This document shows positions 3,589 to 49,687 of a stretch of 49,687 nucleotides of DNA, piece by piece. Within the stretch, counting starts at the first letter, position 1. Each line of letters opens with the position of its first letter. Under the pieces are notes generated by a model. That model was not told the DNA's origin. It ran no database searches and saw only the letters and a list, made by a program, of their open reading frames with translations. The stretch comes from a virus. The position numbers and the translations under genes are program-made. The stretch covers positions 1-49,687 of IMG/VR virus record IMGVR_UViG_3300030103_001972; one strand, written 5' to 3'.

Positions 3589-5157
3589 ATGGAATACAAT
3601 TTACCAAGTGAGTTGGTAAAAAACTTAGACTTCGGTGATGACGCTAAGAAAAGAGTTATTGCCGGAGTTAACAAGTTAGCCCAAGCCGTTAAATCTACAT
3701 TAGGTGCTTCAGGTAAGTGCGTTGTATATGAAGATGGTCGTGGCAAGCCGGTCATAACAAAAGACGGTGTAACCGTTGCGGAAAGCGTAGTCTTATATGA
3801 TCCGGTCGAGAACATGGGCGCAACTCTAATTAAAGAAGCTGCTAGAAATACAGTTAACGAAGCTGGTGACGGCACAACAACTGCTACAGTGCTAGCTGAA
3901 GCAATAATCAAACAAATAGACGCTGCGACCGCAGAAGGTCTAACAATCAGAGAAATAAAAGATGGGGTTAACAAAACGCTAGAAGATGTTATTGCTTATT
4001 TAAATAATAAAGCAATAGATGTTGAAGGTAGTATGTTAGAGTCTGTTAGTGCTATATCATGCAACAACGATAAAGAGCTAGGTGCTATAATAGCAAAAGC
4101 TTATTTTACAGTTGGAAAAAGCGGCGTAGTATTAATGGAAGAAAGCGAATCAGATGAAACGTATGTTGACATCGTAGATGGCGTTAAAGTAGAGTGTGGG
4201 CTTACGTCTCCTCACTTTGTTACTAATACGGAAAAACATACATGTGAACTAGATAATCCGTATGTTTTTATTTGTTCTTCTGAAATACCCAATGTACGTA
4301 AGGTACAAAGTATACTTGAGTACGTTATTAAGAACAACCGATCTTTACTCATAGTAGCTCCAGTAGCACAGCAAGTAAAGTCGGCGCTAATGATGAATAA
4401 AGTTAAAGGTAATATTAAGGTAAACATTATTGATTTACCAGGCTTTGGTCCTACTAAAAAAGATACTACAGACGATCTAGCTATATTAACTGGAGCTACA
4501 GTTATGAATGAAGAACTTGGCGATGATTTAGATTTAATGAAGCCTGAGTATTTAGGTGAAGCTGAGTTTGCCGTAACAGATGACAAGCACACGGTGCTAA
4601 CACTTGAAGGTATGACTGAAGGTATTGAAGGTAGAATAGATGAGCTAAATAAACATCTGCTTGAAGAAAAAAATGATTTTATTAAAAAGAAACTAGAAGC
4701 TAGATTAGCCATGTTATCAGGTAGTGTAGGTATAGTTAAAGTTGGAGCAAACTCTAAGGTTGAGCTTAAAGAAAAGAAAGACAGAGTTGAAGATGCTATA
4801 TATGCTACTAAGGCAGCATTGCAAGAAGGTATTGTGCCCGGTGGTGGCGTAGCTCTATTAAACGCTAGTCAAGAAATAGAAACTAAAAGATGTGGTAAAG
4901 TATTACTTAACGCGCTATCGTCACCATTTAAAACTATACTTGACAACGCTGGTTTAGAACAAGTAGCGCCAAGACCTATTAAAGGTATAGGTGTAGATGT
5001 AGTAACTAGCAAAGAAGTTAATATGGTTGAGTCTGGCATTATTGATCCAGTACTTGTGACTAAGTCTGCACTTAAAAACGCTGTAAGTGTAGCACTAACT
5101 ATTATGTCAGCGGATTGTGTAATATCAAATGTACGTATACCAAATGCAAGCAGTTAA
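3589..5157 (+). CDS. groEL: Phage-encoded chaperonin GroEL
   Basis: A 522-residue chaperonin, ATP-driven folding cage subunit. ATPase residues are intact: KDG with D59 (E. coli D52), GDGTTTATVLA with D94 (D87), and RVEDAIYAT with D402 (the catalytic D398). GIVPGGGVALL is also present, and the apical domain is complete from LTSPHF through PGFG. Differences from bacterial GroEL are a shorter stretch in the C-terminal equatorial domain after residue 420, HF where YF is usual in the substrate/GroES-binding surface, and no Gly-Gly-Met tail (it ends PNASS). It overlaps groES, forming a two-gene unit. Divergence and flanking phage genes argue against host contamination. It likely folds capsid or tail proteins. 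Confidence 0.96.
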   Translation: MEYNLPSELVKNLDFGDDAKKRVIAGVNKLAQAVKSTLGASGKCVVYEDGRGKPVITKDGVTVAESVVLYDPVENMGATLIKEAARNTVNEAGDGTTTATVLAEAIIKQIDAATAEGLTIREIKDGVNKTLEDVIAYLNNKAIDVEGSMLESVSAISCNNDKELGAIIAKAYFTVGKSGVVLMEESESDETYVDIVDGVKVECGLTSPHFVTNTEKHTCELDNPYVFICSSEIPNVRKVQSILEYVIKNNRSLLIVAPVAQQVKSALMMNKVKGNIKVNIIDLPGFGPTKKDTTDDLAILTGATVMNEELGDDLDLMKPEYLGEAEFAVTDDKHTVLTLEGMTEGIEGRIDELNKHLLEEKNDFIKKKLEARLAMLSGSVGIVKVGANSKVELKEKKDRVEDAIYATKAALQEGIVPGGGVALLNASQEIETKRCGKVLLNALSSPFKTILDNAGLEQVAPRPIKGIGVDVVTSKEVNMVESGIIDPVLVTKSALKNAVSVALTIMSADCVISNVRIPNASS

Positions 5158-5401
5158 CGATTATGTAATAGTTGATATAATAAAAGAAGGGCCAAAGAAA
5201 GTTGGTGGTCTTATATTAACTGAACAAACAGATGAAACGAACAGGTACAAAAAAGCTAATGTTATTTCTACAGGTAATGACGTCCCTGTTGTTAATAAAG
5301 GCGATGTTGTATACTACGATGCAGTTGCTGGACACGATATAGCTTACAACGACATTGTATATAGAGTTATACGCGCTAGAGATATAGTTATAGTAGAATA
5401 A
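5144..5401 (+). CDS. groES: Phage-encoded co-chaperonin GroES
   Basis: An 85-residue co-chaperonin that would cap the GroEL cage. The N terminus (MQAVNDYVIVDII) matches the first GroES strand, and the mobile loop that contacts GroEL is present (KKVGGLILTEQ; the hydrophobic tripeptide is LIL). The C-terminal strands (KGDVVYYD, then RDIVIVE) complete the barrel. An in-frame ATG at 5129 would add MYVYQ, but the 5144 start gives the usual GroES N terminus and length. It overlaps the end of groEL by 14 bases, so translation is probably coupled. The order EL-ES is the reverse of the usual bacterial operon. Confidence 0.92.
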   Translation: MQAVNDYVIVDIIKEGPKKVGGLILTEQTDETNRYKKANVISTGNDVPVVNKGDVVYYDAVAGHDIAYNDIVYRVIRARDIVIVE

Positions 5402-5846: not shown

Positions 5847-6155
5847 ATGAACAAATTTTTATTTTTCCAAAACGCAGATAACGACTGTAATGTTTACCCC
5901 TTAACTAAACTAAAATCAGTTGAAGGCGAAGACGATGCTTTAAAATTTACCTTTGACGTTGCAGGAGGCGTTGACACTATTTCTGTACTTTTAGAAGACG
6001 ACTCTGATGAATTAGTAGCAATGAGAGAAGTTGCTGAAGCAATTAACGCTCATCCGCACGGCGATGGTGTTATAGTAGTAGGAGACGATGCTAACACTAA
6101 GTTTGCTATGACTGCTTTTAAAAAAGACGGTAACGCTGTTGGTGCAGCAGGGTAA
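5847..6155 (+). CDS. Small acidic protein, second of a paralogous pair
   Basis: A 102-residue acidic protein related to the previous gene through the (I/F)F(K/Q)NAD(D/N)D start, the PLTKLK segment and a following FTFDV strand. It is Asp/Ala/Gly-rich with alternating short strands and one helix, and its function is not recognisable. The end (AFKKDGNAVGAAG) is flexible. The stop codon lies 3 bases before the winged-helix gene, so the two are probably translated from one message. Confidence 0.7.
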   Translation: MNKFLFFQNADNDCNVYPLTKLKSVEGEDDALKFTFDVAGGVDTISVLLEDDSDELVAMREVAEAINAHPHGDGVIVVGDDANTKFAMTAFKKDGNAVGAAG

Positions 6156-6158
6156 TAG

Positions 6159-6599
6159 ATGCGATTAACTAGTCACGATTTACGTGATTTACAAATCCTT
6201 AAGTATTACAGGCTCGTTAGAAAATGGGCCTGTAAAACTTACGGGTTAACAGACGCTGATCTTGAATTACTAATTTACTTAGATTGCAAGGGGCGTTTTA
6301 CAAGAAATGAATTTATCGACGGTACCTATACAATGAGTTGGGATAAAAACCGTTGGGAAAAATTAAGGAGGAATGGTTGGATAGAAACGTGGAGACACAG
6401 AAATAGAACAACCATCAAATACTCAGTATTCAAAACCTCCTTTAAGTGCTCACACTTGATAAGTAGAATATATCGTATACTTTTAGGGGAAGAGGATATA
6501 CCTACTTCAGAATCAAATGTGTTTTTTAATAACAAATCATACACCGATAAGGTAATGAATAAGTCTATCGATGATATGATAAAAGATAATAAACGATGA
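6159..6599 (+). CDS. Winged-helix DNA-binding protein, MarR-like
   Basis: A 146-residue basic protein. Residues about 28-90 have the layout of a winged helix: LTDADLELLIYLDCKGRFTR (helices 1-2), TMSWDKNRWEKLRRNGWI (recognition helix) and ETWRHRNRTTIKYSVF (wing). Aromatic and basic residues on the third helix would contact DNA. This architecture resembles MarR-type regulators, and proteins of this kind are common in marine phage genomes; the exact family is my inference. Candidate targets are the TGTAAY motifs. It overlaps the holin gene by four bases (ATGA). Confidence 0.6.
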   Translation: MRLTSHDLRDLQILKYYRLVRKWACKTYGLTDADLELLIYLDCKGRFTRNEFIDGTYTMSWDKNRWEKLRRNGWIETWRHRNRTTIKYSVFKTSFKCSHLISRIYRILLGEEDIPTSESNVFFNNKSYTDKVMNKSIDDMIKDNKR

Positions 6600-7018
6600 T
6601 AGGAAAATTTATAGGTGGCTTATTCGGCAAAGTAGTAGAAAATGCAGAAGGAATACTTGATAAAGTTATTACAACAGACAAAGAAAGAGATGAAGCGAAA
6701 CTCGCTCTTAGACGGCTATTACTTGACGCCGAAACAGAAGCTTTTAAACAAGAGGTCGAGGATAGAAAAAGCGCTCGTGATATGTACAAAGACGATGCGC
6801 TCATTCAAAAAATCCTTGCGACATTATTTACAGCAGCATACTTTGGATTAAGTTTCATGATGTTTAAGTTTTTCGTAATGAGAGATCTTGAACTAGGTGA
6901 GTTTGAAATAAGTTTTATTTCTACTATATTTGGAGCCATGAGTGCTAAAGTTAATACGGTAGTCGATTTTTTCTTCGGCGGATCGTCAAAGAAAAATGAA
7001 CAAACAAATAAAAAATAA
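6596..7018 (+). CDS. Holin-like membrane protein of the 3TM type
   Basis: A 140-residue protein with an amphipathic N-terminal helix (IGKFIGGLFGKVV), a charged helical stretch (residues 28-68, KERDEAKLALRRLLLDAE), a membrane segment at about 71-95 (IQKILATLFTAAYFGLSFMMF) and a second at about 104-127. It ends in VDFFFGGSSKK and a Lys/Asn tail. This layout matches the GTA/phage 3TM holin family, where a DDAL(I/V)QK-type segment precedes the hydrophobic block and the tail contains FGSS. It would open the inner membrane at lysis. The candidate lysin lies far away, at about 42.5 kb. Confidence 0.7.
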   Translation: MIGKFIGGLFGKVVENAEGILDKVITTDKERDEAKLALRRLLLDAETEAFKQEVEDRKSARDMYKDDALIQKILATLFTAAYFGLSFMMFKFFVMRDLELGEFEISFISTIFGAMSAKVNTVVDFFFGGSSKKNEQTNKK

Positions 7019-31935: not shown

Positions 31936-34900
31936 ATGAAAAGATATCAATTAACAATTGATGGTGAAGTTATATTTAAAAATGTTTCACCACAAAAAGA
32001 AAAAGCATTTTTTGCTAAATACGGAAAATATAATCCGACTCTAGTTTCTCATGAGCCGGGAAAGTCGAAAGGGACGAGCCAGTCCCAAAACAATCAACAA
32101 CAAAATACGGATTCCAGTTCGGAAGATGGTTCTGCGGAATCATTAGAGGGTAACGCTTTTACAAGGTTTATACAAAAATCTAAAAAAGGTTTACAAGACG
32201 GTACTTATTTAAACTGGGATAAAGACGAGAGCGCTTTACAAAACTTAGTAGATATATCTGGTGAGTTTAGTTATGCTATGTATGATATAATAGCTAATCG
32301 TTTACCTGACGCTATAAGTGGTGGTATAGGTGATCAAAGTAAAGTTAGTGACAAAAAAGATTTAGCTAAACGCGGTGCCGATGTTGATGAAGAGGTGATA
32401 CAATCTATAGTAGATGATCACAATGAAAGAATAACAAAGCCACCGTCAGAGTCTATGAATAGGTTTATTAGCGAATATACTAGAGGCTCAGAGCAGTTTA
32501 AATCCAGAATGAAAAATTTAAATATCAACGCACCTGACTGGGCGGCTGATGCCTGGGGGTTTATACATGCTCAAGCAAAAGAGCCAGCTCAAGCAACTGA
32601 GCAATTAGTGAGATCTATGGGAGGGCAAGGTACTTATTTATTTGGAGATTTATTCAAAGAAGGCGATCCTTCTAATTTATTAGACACAGTAGCTTATGGT
32701 GGGGCTGCTGCTAAAATGGTAGCGCTTGGCCCAGGTAGTATTAGGAAAAAAATAATCAGCGTGCCAATGGCTTTTGTTGGTGGTTCTATATTTAGAATGA
32801 ACCAGCAAATGGAGATGGCTAACACATTTACAGAGCTGTTAACTGAAGAACTAGCTAAAGAAGGAAAAGAGTTTAATTTAGATAACATACAAGACTTTTT
32901 ATCTGATGATGAAAAGTTTGATGAGATTAGACATAAATCTTGGAAAAGAGGTACTACTATAGGTGGTATAGAAGCTTTAGGTATGGGGCTTAGTGGTAAA
33001 GTTTATAGCTCTATGAAAGGGGCTACAAGGCTAGCTAAGCTTAAAAGATTAGCTGCAACGGCTGGTACAGAAGCGGTTGTAGGCTCAACTGGTGAAGTGT
33101 TAGGTAGAGTAGCGGCAGATCAGGAAATGGACGTGTTAGATATCGGTTTTGAAGGAACGGCTGGCGCTGGCGGTGCTCCAATAAGTATAGCAACGCAAAT
33201 GTACTTACATAAAAAACCTAAGTATGTAGTTAAAGATTTAGATGGCAACGAGCATCAAGTTTCTAAACAAGACATGATAAACTTTATAGAAAAGCAGTCG
33301 CCATCTGAAATGATAAAAGCTGATATTGATATTCAAAATGATCCAGAGGTTTCTAAAATATATAACGAAAAGTATCAAAGAGGAAATATAGACTCTCAAT
33401 TAGACCCTACAATAGACGATGAAATCGATAGAAGTAGAGCGGTTGATTTAGAAATAAAAAAACAAGAGCTTGAAGGTAAAATACAAAATGAAAAATTAAC
33501 AAGTAATAAAGCTATATTTGAACAAGAGTTAGACAAAGTTCAGTCTGAGCTAAATCAAATAACAGCTAATTACTTAGAAGTCGGCCAAGAACAAGGTGCT
33601 CAAACTAGAATAGATCAAAGAGCACAAGACGCTAAATCACAAAGAGAAAGAGTTTTTAAAACTAACTTAGAGTTTGCTAAAAAACACAGCGCTATATATG
33701 GACTTAAAGTAGATGATACATTAAGTAGGCAAGAGTTTCTTGAAAGGTTTGGTGAAGAGGCTGCTAATGCAGATGGGTTTATAGACAATGAAACAGATAC
33801 AATATATGTAAACGTAGAAGTAGCGTCTGTAACTAGAGCTGTTAATGTAGGTAACCACGAGTTGTTACATGGTATATTAAGAAAAGCTATGAGAGATAAC
33901 CCTGGCGCTTTTAATAATATAGAACAAAAACTAGAATCAGCTATAGGCGAGCAATTTGAAGTAGTAAAACAAAGAGCTAGAGAAAATTACACTGAACAAG
34001 AATTAATAGAAAGTCCAGATGAGTGGCTAACATTAACATCAGATGCTATAGCTAATGGTCAAATAACTTATAACGAAAGTTCTTTTCAAAATTTAATAGA
34101 TATATTCCTACCTATCATTAGAAGATTTACTCCGTACAAACAAATAAATTTTGACAGCGGCCAAGCTATGTTTGAGTTTTTAAAAGAGTATAATAGAAGT
34201 ATACATAAAGGAACTTTAAGTAGTGGTATAGTTAGAGAGACTGGAGGTAAAGTAAAAACTACTGGTAGAAAAATGTCTAAGTCTTTAGGCCAAACACCTT
34301 TAGAGGCTATAAACGATCTTGTGCCAGACGATATAAAAACTCAAGCAGATTTTTATAGACTTTTAGATGATGCTAGTGTTGAAAATAGAATTTTTGATGG
34401 TAAAAATTTAGCACCTGTTATAGAGCGTTACATTAGAAGCAAGGCTACCTCGCCTCAAGAGTCTGCCAAAATGGTTAATAGAGTAAAAGACAAGTTAATA
34501 AACTTTAATCCTGAAGCAACAAGAGCTGACGGCTCTGTAATAGGGCCTAAAGGTTTTGGCGAGTTTTTATTTGCCAATACTAGGTTTGCTAAGTTAGATG
34601 CTAAGAAAGCGCTGTTTAAAGAAGGTCAAAAAAGAAATGTAACTACATCTATAGATGATGATACTTCTTATACACAAATACAAGATGACACAGCTAAAAA
34701 AGCTTTTGATTTAAATCAAAACGAACAGGTAGATACCGGTGGTATTGTTATTAAAACACAAAGAAAATTTCCTAATAAAGTTAAGCAAGACTTAAAAAAG
34801 AACATACAAGACACTCAGTACGAAAGAGGGGTTGATCAAAAGCCCTATGAGCAGGTTAAAAAAGACTTTATGTCTTATGATAAAATAGGCACTGGTACTA

Positions 34901-37900
34901 CTAGAAATCAAGTCGTACCAACTGGCGTTGTATACCCAGCATTTGAATCTATATCAGAAGGTGTTTATGGTGTTGATCCTAGAACAATAATAGCTCGTGG
35001 GCAAAACTTATCTTTGCAAGAGTCTAATGCCGCGCGTGCCCGTATAAAAGAAGACTTTGATAGCATAGGTGTTAAAGAATCTATATCAACAATATTTCCT
35101 TTGTTTCAATATAACACCGTGACAGGTAAGTCTGTAGGCATAAACAAATCTATACAAGACGCTTTCTACGATGCAGGCCCTGGTATAAGGGTACCTAACT
35201 TAAAAGGTAAAGCATTAAATTTAACTAAAATATCAGACAACGAAATAAAAGCTTTATTTGGAATAAACCCAGATAACACGCTAATGCCATATAAATCTAA
35301 GATGCCATGGGACGGCTTTATAAAAGGCTATATAACCCAAGCTTCCGCGGTTGCTATAAACCAAGAAGCGAGGCAAGTGGCTGGTAAGCCGCTAGCTAAA
35401 ATAGGTATTAGTAAACCTAAAATGGTATTTAGTAAATCGTTGAACTCACTTAACAATATGTTCAATGTTAAAGATAATTTTTATATTGAGCAGTCTGGTA
35501 AAGATCAGGTTTTAAAATTTTATGGATTAGATAAAACTTATAAAATAAAAAATGAAACTGATATAGATGTTTTTATAGAAGAAGTTTTAAAGAAACATAT
35601 ATTTAAACTTGGTCCAAAAGAAATGTGGTTTGGCCCAGGTAAAGGAACGGCATTTACTAGCACCAGTAAAATATACGGATTAGGTTCTTTAAAAGATAAA
35701 AACGGCAAAAGCATAAAAGACGCTAACGGTAATAGTATACAAAATCCATTGTGGATAAAAATACAAGAAAAAATCCAAGCGTTAAAAGATGACAACACGG
35801 TAGTGTATGGTAAAGATATACCAGGCGTTGATTCAAAAGATATATGGACTCTAAGAAGCAAGTACAACACTTTGTTTAAAAACCCAAATCAAATAAGAAA
35901 TAACAAAGCAGATATAGTAGACTTTAATAGAAAAGTAAAGCTTATACATGAAGCACTTTGGGATAGAATAAATACTTCAATAAGAAAAGATAAGCAAAGT
36001 GCTAGAGCTATAGCAACGTACTTAGGCATGGTTGCTAATGACAGAACACATTGGCATAAGCTTGGCGCTCAAGTGGTAGGCTTTTCTACAAAAATAAATA
36101 AATACAAAAATAAAAAAGGCGAAGTTCAAAATGCTAGATATGAACTAGAACACGCTATGCCTTCTACTAACGCTTACTTATATTTATTAGACGCCGCGCT
36201 TGACGACAGCGTAAATTTTAACGCTACTTACGATTTAATTATAGATAACTATAAACTTATAGCTCTAGACAAAGCTCAAGATACTAAGTTAACTGGTTCT
36301 ATAACAGAGTCTGGTTATAGCTTGCAGAAGCGTATGCCTGATAACTGGAGTGTTGTTGATGGCAAATTTTACCAAAGATATTTTAACGATATAGTAGCTA
36401 AGATAGATGGCGGTATAGATCCAGCTTCTATAGAAATGTTAGACGGTAGCACTATGGCCGAGACTTATAAAATAAGAGTTGATGGCACACCTAGTAATAG
36501 ATCTTATAGTAAATCAACTTTAGATTATTCTAATAACAATAGAGAAGCTATACTAAATAGAATAAAGCATAGTAAGTCTGGTTATGAAAGAGGTATGTCT
36601 ACGTTTGACTTTGACGATACACTTGGTTTTACTAAGTCAGGCGTTAGAGCCACAGTACCTAATTTAGATGATTTACCCAAGCCAAGTCGTAAAGTTATAT
36701 TCTTAGCTGGTGGTGCTGGTAGTGGTAAAGGTAATGTGATAAGACAGCTTGGCTTAGAAAAACAGGGATTTAAAATAGTAAACTCAGATATATCATTAGA
36801 GTGGTTAAAGAAAAACTCAGGCCTACCTGCTGATATGCGAGACCTAACTAAAGAACAAAGAAGTACGTTAGGTAAATTAGGCGCTGAGTCTAGAAAAATA
36901 GCTAGACGTAAAATGATGAAGTACCAAGGTAGCGCTAACGGTGTGGTTGTTGACGGCACTGGTGGTAGCGTAAAATCAATGACAAAGCTTGTAGATGAGT
37001 TTAAATCTAAAGGATATGATGTTAGTATGTTATTTGTAGATACTTCGTTAGACGTAGCCTTAGAGCGTAATAGAGCTAGAAAAGAAAGATCATTGTTAGA
37101 TAGTATAGTAAAACGTAATCACGAAGCTGTACAAAACAATAAGTCTGCATTTAAAGAAATGTTTGGCAAAAGATTTATGGAGGTTAATACAGATAAGTTA
37201 ACTCAACAAGATCCTATGCCAAACAAACTAATAAAACAAATGGACGACTTTGTTTATAGTTATGAAAAGCTTAGGCTAGACGCAGAAGAGTTTGCTACGC
37301 AAGGAGATGATATACTTAACAGAGGTGGTACGTTTGACTTTTCAGAATTTAACGACGTTGTTGATGGTACGCCTGGTCCTTTATTAGACAAAGCTAAACA
37401 ACGTGCGGCTAAATTTGGAACTAAAGATATGTTTGTTTTAACTGCTAGACCTCAAGCTTCTGCCAAAGCTATACATGAATTTTTAAAATCGCAAGGACTA
37501 AATATACCTATAGAAAATATAACTGGCTTAGCTGATAGTACTGGTAACGCTAAGGCGCAATGGATGTTAGGTAAGTTTGCAGAGGGTTATAATAACATGT
37601 ACTTTGTAGATGATGCTTTACAAAATGTTGAAGCTGTAAAAAAAGTACTAGACCAGTTAGATATTAAGTCAGACGTAGTTCAAGCTAAAAGAAAGTTTAG
37701 TAAGACAGCTAGCGAAAACTTTAATACTATATTAGAAGAGTCTCAAAATGTTAACAGGCAAAGAACGTACTCATATGCTGAAGCTAAAAGATCTGGCGCA
37801 AACAAGGGTTGGTTTAGAATATTTGTTCCACCATCAGCTGAAGATTTTAAAGGTTTATTATATAGATTTTTAGGTAAAGGTAGGCAGGGTGAAATGCATA

Positions 37901-39795
37901 TGAAGTATTTTAAAATAAAATTACTAGACCCATTTGCTAAAGGTATAAGATCTTGGAATATATATAAACAAGAAATGGTTAACGAATATAACCAATTAAA
38001 AAAAGATCACAAAGATGTTGTTGATATACTTTATGAAAACTTAGGAGACACAGGTTTTACTACTGACGCTGCGATAAGATTATACTTGTGGGATAAGGCT
38101 GGCTTTGATATACCAGGTATAGATAATACAACCAAACAAAGGTTAATAAACTTTGTTAAAGAAAATCCAGACGTTAGACAATTCGCTGATAACTTAGGCG
38201 CTATAACAAAAACAAAAGAAGGTTACGTTGCGCCTAGCGAAAATTGGTCTTTAGGCACTATAGCTAATGACTTAAACGATGTTGTTAACAAGGTTGGTAG
38301 AAAGCAATTTTTATCAGAGTACTTAGCTAATGTTGAGGCCATGTTTACTCCAGACAATATGAATAAAATAGAAGCTCTATACGGAACTAGCTTTAGAGAA
38401 GCTCTAGAAAACATATTATACCGTATGGAAAATGGTGGTAATAGAAGAATGAGTACTGATAGAAATGTTAACAGAATGTACAATTGGATAAACGGTTCTA
38501 TCGGTGCAATAATGTTTATAAATATTAGATCAGCGGTACTACAGACACTATCAACTGTTAATTTTATAAACTGGAATGATAATAATGTTTTTAAAGCAGC
38601 GGCCGCATTTGCTAATCAACCTCAATTTTGGGCTGACTTTGCAATGATATTTAATTCCGCGCAATTAAAACAAAGAAGAGCTGGCATACAAATAGATGTG
38701 TCAGCATCGGAATTATCAAGAGCGTTTGCTGATGGTAGAGGTACGCCACAATCAGTTATAAACTGGTTACTAGAAAAAGGTTTTACGCCCACGCAAATAG
38801 CAGATAGTTTTGCTATATCATTTGGTGGCGCTACTCTTTTTAGAAATAGATTTAATACTTACAAAAAGCAAGGGTTTACAGATACTCAAGCTCAAGAAAA
38901 AGCTATGGTAGATTTTCAAGAGATAGCTGAAGAAACTCAACAGTCATCAAGAGAAGATTTAATATCACAGCAGCAAGCTGGCCCTATGGGTAGGTTAATA
39001 CTAGCTTTTCAAAACGTTACAATGCAGTATACTCGTTTAACGAAAAAAGCTTTGGCTGATTTGTATTATGGTAGAGGTGATTTTAAAACCAACATATCTA
39101 AAATAGTTTATTATGGCGTTGCTCAAAATATAATATTCGCATCACTTCAGTCAGCGCTAGCATTTATACTTTGGGGTAATGATGAAGAAGAAATAAAAGA
39201 CAGAACAACAAGAACTTTAAATAGTGCGCTAGACTCTTTTCTTCGTGGTACTGGTATATATGGAGCTATAATATCAACGGTAAAAAATACTATACTACAA
39301 CATAAAAGACAAAAAGAAAAAAAGTGGGGAAGGGAAGATGGTAGAACTATATTAGAAATGGTTAACTTATCTCCACCTATAGGTAGTAAGCTTAGAAAAA
39401 TATACAACGCTATAAAAACAGAGCAGTACAATAAAGGCGTAAGTGAAGAACTTGGTCTTCGTATAGAAAATCCTAACCTACACAAATGGGCCAGTGTAAT
39501 AGAAGCGTTAACTAATATACCAACTGAAAGAGTTGTTAGAAAAGCAAACAATATAGAAGAAGCTTTAACAAGTAATCATTTACTATGGCAAAGAATATTG
39601 CTAGCTATGGGTTGGAGTACTTGGAGTTTAGGTATAAAAGATGAGGAGCTTACTAAAGCTAGAGGTGATGCTAAAGAAACTAAAAAAAGAGAAAAAAATA
39701 AAGGTAAAGTTAGGTGTAAAGCTATTAAAAAAAGTGGTGGTAGATGTAAGAACACTACTAAGAATAAAAGTGGTAGGTGTTATGCTCACCAATAA
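31936..39795 (+). CDS. Giant polyvalent internal virion protein: HExxH, HAD with P-loop kinase, membrane segments
   Basis: A 2619-residue protein, one reading frame. In order: a disordered Ser/Gln/Asn-rich stretch (40-75); an HExxH motif (NHELLHG, H641-H645); a long uncharacterised region; HAD motif I (FDFDDT, D1558, D1560); a P-loop kinase with Walker A (GGAGSGKG, K1598) and a VVVDGTG strand (D1673); HAD motif II (FVLTARP, T1836), a Lys (K1873) and motif IV (FVDDAL, D1892-D1893); hydrophobic stretches near 2184-2212 and 2393-2413; and a C-terminal C2594-C2604-C2615-H2618 set. This fits the large polyvalent protein type carried in virions and delivered to the host. Individual activities are inferred from motifs. 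Confidence 0.8.
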   Translation: MKRYQLTIDGEVIFKNVSPQKEKAFFAKYGKYNPTLVSHEPGKSKGTSQSQNNQQQNTDSSSEDGSAESLEGNAFTRFIQKSKKGLQDGTYLNWDKDESALQNLVDISGEFSYAMYDIIANRLPDAISGGIGDQSKVSDKKDLAKRGADVDEEVIQSIVDDHNERITKPPSESMNRFISEYTRGSEQFKSRMKNLNINAPDWAADAWGFIHAQAKEPAQATEQLVRSMGGQGTYLFGDLFKEGDPSNLLDTVAYGGAAAKMVALGPGSIRKKIISVPMAFVGGSIFRMNQQMEMANTFTELLTEELAKEGKEFNLDNIQDFLSDDEKFDEIRHKSWKRGTTIGGIEALGMGLSGKVYSSMKGATRLAKLKRLAATAGTEAVVGSTGEVLGRVAADQEMDVLDIGFEGTAGAGGAPISIATQMYLHKKPKYVVKDLDGNEHQVSKQDMINFIEKQSPSEMIKADIDIQNDPEVSKIYNEKYQRGNIDSQLDPTIDDEIDRSRAVDLEIKKQELEGKIQNEKLTSNKAIFEQELDKVQSELNQITANYLEVGQEQGAQTRIDQRAQDAKSQRERVFKTNLEFAKKHSAIYGLKVDDTLSRQEFLERFGEEAANADGFIDNETDTIYVNVEVASVTRAVNVGNHELLHGILRKAMRDNPGAFNNIEQKLESAIGEQFEVVKQRARENYTEQELIESPDEWLTLTSDAIANGQITYNESSFQNLIDIFLPIIRRFTPYKQINFDSGQAMFEFLKEYNRSIHKGTLSSGIVRETGGKVKTTGRKMSKSLGQTPLEAINDLVPDDIKTQADFYRLLDDASVENRIFDGKNLAPVIERYIRSKATSPQESAKMVNRVKDKLINFNPEATRADGSVIGPKGFGEFLFANTRFAKLDAKKALFKEGQKRNVTTSIDDDTSYTQIQDDTAKKAFDLNQNEQVDTGGIVIKTQRKFPNKVKQDLKKNIQDTQYERGVDQKPYEQVKKDFMSYDKIGTGTTRNQVVPTGVVYPAFESISEGVYGVDPRTIIARGQNLSLQESNAARARIKEDFDSIGVKESISTIFPLFQYNTVTGKSVGINKSIQDAFYDAGPGIRVPNLKGKALNLTKISDNEIKALFGINPDNTLMPYKSKMPWDGFIKGYITQASAVAINQEARQVAGKPLAKIGISKPKMVFSKSLNSLNNMFNVKDNFYIEQSGKDQVLKFYGLDKTYKIKNETDIDVFIEEVLKKHIFKLGPKEMWFGPGKGTAFTSTSKIYGLGSLKDKNGKSIKDANGNSIQNPLWIKIQEKIQALKDDNTVVYGKDIPGVDSKDIWTLRSKYNTLFKNPNQIRNNKADIVDFNRKVKLIHEALWDRINTSIRKDKQSARAIATYLGMVANDRTHWHKLGAQVVGFSTKINKYKNKKGEVQNARYELEHAMPSTNAYLYLLDAALDDSVNFNATYDLIIDNYKLIALDKAQDTKLTGSITESGYSLQKRMPDNWSVVDGKFYQRYFNDIVAKIDGGIDPASIEMLDGSTMAETYKIRVDGTPSNRSYSKSTLDYSNNNREAILNRIKHSKSGYERGMSTFDFDDTLGFTKSGVRATVPNLDDLPKPSRKVIFLAGGAGSGKGNVIRQLGLEKQGFKIVNSDISLEWLKKNSGLPADMRDLTKEQRSTLGKLGAESRKIARRKMMKYQGSANGVVVDGTGGSVKSMTKLVDEFKSKGYDVSMLFVDTSLDVALERNRARKERSLLDSIVKRNHEAVQNNKSAFKEMFGKRFMEVNTDKLTQQDPMPNKLIKQMDDFVYSYEKLRLDAEEFATQGDDILNRGGTFDFSEFNDVVDGTPGPLLDKAKQRAAKFGTKDMFVLTARPQASAKAIHEFLKSQGLNIPIENITGLADSTGNAKAQWMLGKFAEGYNNMYFVDDALQNVEAVKKVLDQLDIKSDVVQAKRKFSKTASENFNTILEESQNVNRQRTYSYAEAKRSGANKGWFRIFVPPSAEDFKGLLYRFLGKGRQGEMHMKYFKIKLLDPFAKGIRSWNIYKQEMVNEYNQLKKDHKDVVDILYENLGDTGFTTDAAIRLYLWDKAGFDIPGIDNTTKQRLINFVKENPDVRQFADNLGAITKTKEGYVAPSENWSLGTIANDLNDVVNKVGRKQFLSEYLANVEAMFTPDNMNKIEALYGTSFREALENILYRMENGGNRRMSTDRNVNRMYNWINGSIGAIMFINIRSAVLQTLSTVNFINWNDNNVFKAAAAFANQPQFWADFAMIFNSAQLKQRRAGIQIDVSASELSRAFADGRGTPQSVINWLLEKGFTPTQIADSFAISFGGATLFRNRFNTYKKQGFTDTQAQEKAMVDFQEIAEETQQSSREDLISQQQAGPMGRLILAFQNVTMQYTRLTKKALADLYYGRGDFKTNISKIVYYGVAQNIIFASLQSALAFILWGNDEEEIKDRTTRTLNSALDSFLRGTGIYGAIISTVKNTILQHKRQKEKKWGREDGRTILEMVNLSPPIGSKLRKIYNAIKTEQYNKGVSEELGLRIENPNLHKWASVIEALTNIPTERVVRKANNIEEALTSNHLLWQRILLAMGWSTWSLGIKDEELTKARGDAKETKKREKNKGKVRCKAIKKSGGRCKNTTKNKSGRCYAHQ

Positions 39796-48001: not shown

Positions 48002-49687
48002 TTAAACAACTTCACAGTTACCACCAGCGCAAGCAAGCTCACCTGATAGATCTGTGTTATCATCTGTCTCTGTTACTTTCGTTAAATCGACATCAGATAA
48101 TACTTTAGACATTTTATTGTATTCAGCTTCGTCAATGTCTTCAAACGGAGCTTGTGTATATGTACCACCGTCGTATGGTAATACTGATAACCCATTGTAA
48201 TAATCTCTATTACTCCACATCCACTCACCTGCTTTTTTCCACTCATCTTCTTTCAAAGATATTGTAGCTGATACATTGTGAGTATTACTACCACGTCTGT
48301 GACCAGGCTTAATCCACTCTTGAGCTACACGTTTAACTCTTTCAAGAGTATCAAACGGTGATTCAGTTCTAAGTATTGATTTAGCTGGAGCTTTTTGTGG
48401 TACAGATATTACCGCTGTATCGTGCGGTCTGAAGTATTCATCTTCAATTAATTCTGGATGTGACTTAGATAAATATTTATATATAGCCTCGTTTTTTCCT
48501 ACGCGCATCCTACGTACATAATAATCATTATGCCACGCATGAATACCCGAAGACGTTCCGAGGACCAGAGATGTCGTCCCTGCAGGTTTTACGGTTGTAC
48601 ATCTGGCTGAAGATTTAATCCCTAAGATCTTTGCTGCTCTTGCATTTTCTTTTGTTACGATATTTGCAGCTTCCTTCATATCCATTTGGAGCACAGCGGC
48701 ACTCCCTATCCCTGTCATTGACACACCTATAAGAGCGTCTTTCTCTGTTGTCTCTTTCCATATTTCTCTAAGATAATGGAAGTCGGTATATGCGGCTTGC
48801 AATGTTCCAATAAACGCTGCTGCCTTGACTCTGTTATTAAAATCAGCTTGATCTTCTATATCAGAGACGTTTACTTCGCATAGATTACAGAACTGAAAAG
48901 GCCTTAGTGCTATCTCACAACAAGGATTAGTTCCCCAGTCCTTATCATTGTTAAGATATATACCAGGCTCACCAGCTCCTGATAACTCAACCCTTTTCCA
49001 TAAGTCCATAAAGAACTCTTTAGTTACTTTATGCCTCATTAAAACAGCTGAGTTATTAGCTCTACCTCTTTGTGGGTTAGTTTCCCACCAATGTCCTGAT
49101 TTACAACCTATCATTTCGTTATCGCTAGCAGTAAACAAACTAATTAAAGCAGCTCGTCTAATACCACCAGCTAATACAGCATCAGCTATATGACATATGA
49201 TATCGTGTACTTCAAGAGAAGTTAAAGCGTCACCGTCTTCTTTTGATTGAAGTATACCTTCAACCTTGATTAAACATTCTTTTAATGGCTGTGGACCAGG
49301 TGCTTTACCACCTGATGTCACTAGCCTAGCACCCTTTGGTCTGATACAAGTATAATCAAAGTTTATCTTAGAAGCTTTTTTACCACCAAGGTAAGACTTA
49401 ATTAATACTTTAACAGCATCAGACCAACCTTCAATTGAATCACCTATAACAAACCTTTTAGACCTTTTCATATAAGGTTTAGTTATCACAGGCAAGTCTT
49501 TGATGTGATGCTGTTGAACCGAATAACCGACTCCACATCCTGAAAGTAATAGAAACATTATCTCGTTAAAAGCTTCAATATCATCTACAGGTAAGTATGA
49601 ACAGTTATACAACCTATTAGGACTTACTTGTATTGGTTTACCAGCAAATTGTAAACTACGCATTGATGGTAAAATCTTTTTATCAAA
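48002..49687 (-). CDS. nrdJ: Class II (adenosylcobalamin-dependent) ribonucleotide reductase, partial
   Basis: The 3' part of a B12-dependent ribonucleotide triphosphate reductase, making dNTPs. The frame stays open to the right edge; the first ATG in the window (49663) is internal (KKILPSMRSL). By comparison with the 739-residue Lactobacillus enzyme, roughly 175 residues are missing. Key residues are present: LYNCSY (C119), TNPCCE (N406, C408 thiyl radical, E410), QFCNLCE (C419), and the C-terminal CAGGNC pair that reduces the active site. It runs opposite to the structural genes, as expected for a metabolic/replication module. Activity would need host or imported cobalamin. Confidence 0.93.
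   Translation of the reverse strand, partial: FDKKILPSMRSLQFAGKPIQVSPNRLYNCSYLPVDDIEAFNEIMFLLLSGCGVGYSVQQHHIKDLPVITKPYMKRSKRFVIGDSIEGWSDAVKVLIKSYLGGKKASKINFDYTCIRPKGARLVTSGGKAPGPQPLKECLIKVEGILQSKEDGDALTSLEVHDIICHIADAVLAGGIRRAALISLFTASDNEMIGCKSGHWWETNPQRGRANNSAVLMRHKVTKEFFMDLWKRVELSGAGEPGIYLNNDKDWGTNPCCEIALRPFQFCNLCEVNVSDIEDQADFNNRVKAAAFIGTLQAAYTDFHYLREIWKETTEKDALIGVSMTGIGSAAVLQMDMKEAANIVTKENARAAKILGIKSSARCTTVKPAGTTSLVLGTSSGIHAWHNDYYVRRMRVGKNEAIYKYLSKSHPELIEDEYFRPHDTAVISVPQKAPAKSILRTESPFDTLERVKRVAQEWIKPGHRRGSNTHNVSATISLKEDEWKKAGEWMWSNRDYYNGLSVLPYDGGTYTQAPFEDIDEAEYNKMSKVLSDVDLTKVTETDDNTDLSGELACAGGNCEVV

Follow-up and report, generated by a model that had tools for sequence, protein, structure and literature searches.

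The 5'-kinase of C. thermocellum is one part of a larger Pnkp and is not known to be nested in a HAD domain. In jumbo phages, HAD domains of the PNK type are reported to be preceded, in most cases, by an N-terminal kinase in the same fusion protein (PMC7824862), and caps at the C1-cap site of HAD phosphatases tune substrate specificity (PMC7822558). Zeta-like kinases have been reported in the polyvalent proteins of phages and as fusions to MuF domains (PMC5512222); word searches of that text returned no mention of a HAD phosphatase, an insertion or an exchange site. Further, no published description of a kinase within a HAD flap, or of a nested, exchangeable arrangement of this type, was found in the open-licence literature. 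Here, a viral locus that appears to encode such an arrangement is compared with these systems.

The window analyzed is a whole virus record of 49,687 bases. The terminase has its closest match in an uncultured podovirus, followed by those of Flavobacterium and Cellulophaga phages, and the host is therefore probably a member of the Bacteroidetes; the phage is of a marine, podovirus-like type that probably infects these bacteria. The giant gene at 31936-39795 occupies the same place as giant genes labelled 'structural protein' in Flavobacterium elemo and Cellulophaga phages, and in elemo, phi38:1 and phi19:3 the structural block likewise ends in a giant gene that is annotated as structural. This synteny suggests that the encoded protein would be located in the virion, and gene order likewise points to its delivery with the DNA. 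Profiles of parts of the giant protein detected no sequence homology to the giant proteins of phi38:1, phi19:3 or elemo, nor was homology found to the annotated structural protein of any cultured phage; the sole homology recovered with these profiles was to the giant protein that uncultured ctfjg026 encodes. The phage phi18:1 was dropped as a check of the structural annotation because its record represents a different phage type.

Several other features of the window were observed. A GroEL gene (Cpn60, Pfam 3.7e-54) followed by a small GroES-looking open reading frame occupies 3589-5401, and chaperonin genes are also present in relatives (GroEL and chaperonin 10 in ctfjg026, GroES in the elemo phage). 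Five small-to-medium open reading frames (1296, 1670, 2773, 43085 and 46537), dispersed to either side of the structural block, start with the same peptide, MAFK(L/M), which could serve them as a common tag for targeting or packaging. A ribonucleotide reductase, of class II type by Pfam and possibly cut by the contig end, lies on the opposite strand at the end of the window (48002-49663). Within the giant protein, a metallopeptidase-type HExxH motif (HELLH, residue 641, 33856-33870) is present, as in polyvalent proteins, and the Cys-rich C-terminus (CKAIKKSGGRCKNTTKNKSGRC..H; 39715-39792) resembles a small zinc-binding tail with weak matches to DUF5763 and HGGxSTG. The giant gene and its parts are as follows.

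31936..39795, plus strand: giant polyvalent-type protein of 2619 aa, toward the end of the structural block (open frame; gene position)
36586..36678, plus strand: N-terminal part of the HAD domain, residues 1551-1581, with the motif I strand and the first flap strand 1570-1575 (model strands E3-8 and E20-25; joined directly to the C-terminal part where relatives have no insert)
36607..36621, plus strand: HAD motif I, DFDDT, D1558/D1560/T1562 (invariant in 90 homologues)
36691..37257, plus strand: P-loop kinase insert, residues 1586-1774 (Pfam AAA_33/Zeta_toxin; Foldseek)
36709..36732, plus strand: Walker A motif GGAGSGKG, K1598 (K in 57/57 kinases)
36787..36789, plus strand: D1618, counterpart of the T4 Pnkp catalytic base D35 (alignment, 57/57)
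36952..36960, plus strand: D1673-G-T1675 strand-end motif, the T4 S84-D85-T86 region (57/57)
37066..37080, plus strand: lid arginines R1711 and R1715, T4 R122 and R126 (57/57)
37261..37683, plus strand: C-terminal part of the HAD domain, residues 1776-1916, with the second flap strand and motifs II-IV (model strands E226-231 to E361-366; alignment)
37333..37350, plus strand: conserved block FDFSEF, residues 1800-1805 (found alongside motif I in relatives without the insert)
37435..37449, plus strand: HAD motif II, VLTAR, T1836 (invariant)
37552..37554, plus strand: HAD motif III, K1873 (invariant)
37609..37614, plus strand: HAD motif IV, D1892-D1893 of FVDD (invariant)

A preliminary description of this DNA had placed HAD motif I (FDFDDT, D1558/D1560) before the Walker A motif (GGAGSGKG, K1598) and T1836, K1873 and D1892-D1893 after it, and the translation of 31936-39795 confirms each of these numbers. 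It had read the arrangement as a single phosphatase domain split by a kinase of the zeta-toxin/PNK type, a reading upheld by a confident structural model and by kinase-free relatives with the same motif I at 78-81 aa. A first fragment search of viral contigs recovered a total of 49 loci, in 40 of which motifs I and II are separated by a kinase; the remaining 9 encode a kinase-free, uninterrupted HAD domain with one motif I. In the kinase-free homologues, no distinct motif I lies next to motif II; the same single motif I precedes motif II by the distance given above. This distance is 78-81 aa in 101 loci, 278-284 in 84 (278 in the window) and 215 in one. The kinase-bearing arrangement was identified in 80 unique metagenomic regions and is therefore no assembly artefact. 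A chance co-occurrence or artefact, with motif I not belonging to the downstream half of the HAD domain, has nothing in its favor other than the 278-residue spacing; it is ruled out by the insert-free relatives, the 80 unique kinase-bearing regions, the invariant residues and the confident model, which leave it a negligible probability. Taken on architecture and recurrence, it is close to certain that these sequences represent a HAD domain split by an inserted kinase.

The AlphaFold2 model, built from a 90-row alignment, has a mean pLDDT of 91.1 and a pTM of 0.80. Motif I is not predicted to fall outside the HAD core (pLDDT of its block ~94), and the modeled kinase is bracketed by strands 1570-1575 and 1776-1781, as by the two flap strands of a HAD domain. 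The order of secondary structure elements, the confidence of the model and the insert-free relatives together suggest that the two HAD halves pack against each other.

Alignment of 90 diverse homologues (57 with the kinase and 33 without) revealed that positions 1558, 1560, 1562, 1836, 1873, 1892 and 1893 (D8, D10, T12, T286, K323, D342 and D343) are all invariant. The features that define the HAD superfamily are present, namely DxD in motif I, T/S in motif II, K in motif III and DD in motif IV on a Rossmannoid core, with secondary structure in the expected order in the model. The FDFSEF block (1800-1805) was considered as the true motif I and rejected, as it has no second Asp and motif I is also present in insert-free relatives. 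At the level of families, an insert-free relative matched the HAD-type family DUF2608 (23.3 bits versus a cut-off of 22.6), and 6 and 3 of the 90 aligned members matched Hydrolase and HAD, respectively, at E <= 0.01; the HAD part of the window itself scores under the Pfam cut-offs. Among 41 members of the HAD alignment, 27 matched PHROG 415 ('polynucleotide kinase'), the best of them at 1.5e-9, and an insert-free HAD used as a query against PDB sequences returned no HAD. In comparisons with the seven relatives closest to the window, dN/dS was 0.04-0.10 for the HAD domain and 0.11-0.21 for the kinase, and both are under purifying selection. A search for this HAD domain in cultured phages found nothing, and a search of a genome collection returned no more than 14 loci, each on a MAG contig that seems to be phage DNA placed in the bin of another genome.

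Over residues about 1583-1738, the insert matches the Pfam families AAA_33 (1.7e-10; 41.8 bits, cut-off 27) and Zeta_toxin (1.6e-8, above the cut-off). Counterparts of T4 Pnkp K15, D35, R122 and R126 are encoded in 57/57 kinases, with S, G or T at the position of S16, such that a Walker A Lys, an Asp base and a lid Arg, as expected of a PNK-type kinase, are found in every one. Judged by their residues, both active sites are intact and conserved, and the protein is likely an active bifunctional enzyme. R38 is not retained, being replaced by Leu in 53/57 and Ile in 4/57 kinases and by Phe, Tyr or Ile in other phage relatives. In T4, R38 is the contact to the polynucleotide substrate that is required for polynucleotide kinase activity. 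The pattern of residues suggests a PNK-like kinase with a substrate pocket of its own.

Kinase relatives were also observed outside of the HAD context. Proteins of ~220 aa that consist of the kinase on its own are encoded by marine myoviruses of Pelagibacter (HTVC008M) and Methylophilales (the Melnitz phages), as at L051:2953-3615 and L052:2950-3618, where the annotation is merely hypothetical protein; the Melnitz gene is near a baseplate gene. A further relative is embedded in AUZ94865 of Agrobacterium phage Atu_ph07, a protein of 778 aa.

Two more specific functions may be weighed against these data. The first is that the kinase acts as a zeta toxin does, phosphorylating a sugar nucleotide such as UDP-GlcNAc and thereby weakening the cell wall at entry. 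The Zeta_toxin match above the cut-off, the zeta toxin among the Foldseek matches (5.8e-7), the name UDP-N-acetylglucosamine kinase carried by the public protein nearest in sequence (83% identity in the aligned part) and the zeta-like kinases reported in polyvalent proteins and in fusions to MuF domains (PMC5512222) all accord with such a role. However, polynucleotide kinases rather than zeta toxins match best by both profile and fold: T4 Pnkp was ranked first by Foldseek (9.2e-8), followed by Pnkp1, a bacterial Pnkp kinase and then zeta toxin, the C. thermocellum Pnkp kinase gave a TM of up to 0.72 by target length, and the same kinase was the best profile match among solved sequences, at a weak E of 0.006. 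With the public name probably automatic, a zeta-type function is considered improbable.

The second is strict end-healing by a polynucleotide kinase/3'-phosphatase of the T4 Pnkp type, a narrower form of the bifunctional end-healing or nucleotide-modifying role that the preliminary description had suggested. In its favor are the retained T4 Pnkp catalytic residues, the top Foldseek matches, the PHROG labels of both the kinase and the HAD parts and an RNA ligase in some relatives. Against it, Leu or Ile occupies the R38 position in 57/57 kinases and the HAD domain resembles the T4 phosphatase in sequence at motif I only. Moreover, no RNA ligase (PF09414) was found in the window or in most of the 17 records searched; it scored over the cut-off in 3 of the 17, possibly fragments themselves, and has no clear tie to the kinase state. 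A search with PF09511 (T4 RNA ligase family) had silent controls and carries no weight. Strict end-healing is thus a rather doubtful description of the pair, if a better one than the zeta-type function.

The flap that receives the kinase also receives other domains. Among a total of 415 unique related regions, the insert is absent or almost so in 311 (distance to the start of the C-terminal model of 23-26 in the insert-free class), a kinase in 80, an ART-PolyVal-like domain in 11, a second ART-like type in 2 (L365 and L431) and another domain in 2 (L254 and L371), with short inserts in the others. This exchange pattern is a new finding beyond the split HAD domain. The insertion point is downstream of a VLYTMP-type strand and upstream of a KLNAEEFA block, and it was L111, a locus with odd motif spacing, that led to the further insert types. 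ART-PolyVal (PF18760) is the best Pfam family for 4/4 representative ART-like inserts, all below the cut-off (E 1e-4 to 0.046). For the L325 form, the model has a pLDDT of 89.3 and a pTM of 0.72, and its Foldseek list contains mainly KptA, PARP/tankyrase and HAD structures, none significant (best E 0.056). The second ART-like type is named from a YYHGTS motif only, without Pfam support. A search for the ART-like insert in cultured phages found nothing. The ART-PolyVal-like inserts are those of L325, L111, L324, L326-L332 (near 6001-6950) and L272 (8567-9517), and in some of them the expected His or Tyr is missing on visual inspection, such that their putative activity is uncertain. The other inserted domain (L254:252-1232, L371:5998-6963) resembles by eye a C-terminal segment of Atu_ph07 AUZ94865.

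On supported branches of a HAD-core tree from which inserts were left out (a quick tree with SH-aLRT support only and with recombination outside its model), at least five changes are required for the kinase label and at least five for the ART label, and the site therefore looks like an exchange socket. The kinase of L023 is 77% identical to that of the window, while its HAD domain is 67% identical to that of the window and up to 85% identical to kinase-free HAD domains; this locus looks chimeric. As an evolutionary pattern, exchange at the flap loop is well supported by these comparisons. A stronger version, in which the flap is a dedicated plug-in socket where kinase, ART-like and other modules are swapped at one exact point, each as a catalytically active cap that yields interchangeable two-enzyme effectors, is tentative and in our estimation falls slightly short of even odds. 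The same pattern could arise without coupling, if the flap is a tolerant loop for any useful effector module and the kinase and HAD act independently, with the HAD pocket unserved by the kinase. Unrelated modules at one point that is mostly empty, the repeated changes of both labels and the stand-alone kinases of HTVC008M and Melnitz phages would all fit independence. Invariance of the HAD catalytic residues with or without the kinase argues against it, as does the expectation that an insert at a site where caps tune HAD specificity (PMC7822558) should affect access to the HAD pocket, and uncoupled modules are regarded as unlikely on balance.

The reading favored here, with a probability of roughly 0.6 as a whole, is that the HAD flap of a giant late-gene protein holds a kinase of the PNK/zeta type, the protein being a polyvalent effector with a kinase/phosphatase pair. 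As the comparisons show, the flap hairpin (C1-cap site) of a HAD-fold phosphatase has taken in a whole P-loop kinase, which may be seated over the HAD pocket at the usual place of a cap. As such an effector, the giant protein would travel in or together with the virion, and the pair may target nucleic-acid ends or nucleotides at an early stage of infection, one example being the repair or modification of RNA cut by host defences. A nucleic-acid end or nucleotide is a plausible substrate. The kinase is absent from most HAD relatives, and the two activities are therefore not obligately coupled. Caps decide substrate choice in HAD phosphatases, and here that role would fall to an entire, conserved second enzyme of opposite chemistry, which adds phosphate where the HAD removes it. 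If correct, the kinase cap and its ART-like replacement at the same point would represent a clear example of modular enzyme nesting in nature and would offer a way to study what phages bring into the cell early in infection. Two questions are thereby made testable: whether the enzyme at the cap site and the HAD share a substrate, and which host defence the exchange of modules tracks.

Compared with known systems, the nearest public sequences come from uncultured marine viruses: A0A218MLT5 and A0A7S9STY3 match parts of the fragment at 83% and 67% identity. These two proteins carry general or automatic names only, and no description of their nested architecture was found in the accessible literature. 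The zeta toxin family (PF06414) is matched by the kinase above the cut-off, with fold and profile matches closer to polynucleotide kinases. The closest solved kinase by profile and by fold is the 5'-kinase domain of C. thermocellum Pnkp (4gp7, 4jst, 4mde), at about 15% identity. Like T4 Pnkp (PseT), its best Foldseek match, the window protein combines in one chain a P-loop kinase with the K15/D35/R122/R126 set and a HAD phosphatase. The two differ in that the T4 domains are in tandem with the kinase first, whereas the window kinase is nested in the HAD flap, as the preliminary description had recognized, does not keep R38 and is paired with a HAD similar to that of T4 only at motif I. With the polyvalent proteins of phages (Iyer et al. 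2017, PMC5512222), the window protein shares the form of a giant, multidomain late-gene product with HExxH in the chain, ART-PolyVal-like modules in relatives and several effector domains in one giant chain, here the HAD, the kinase and the HExxH motif.
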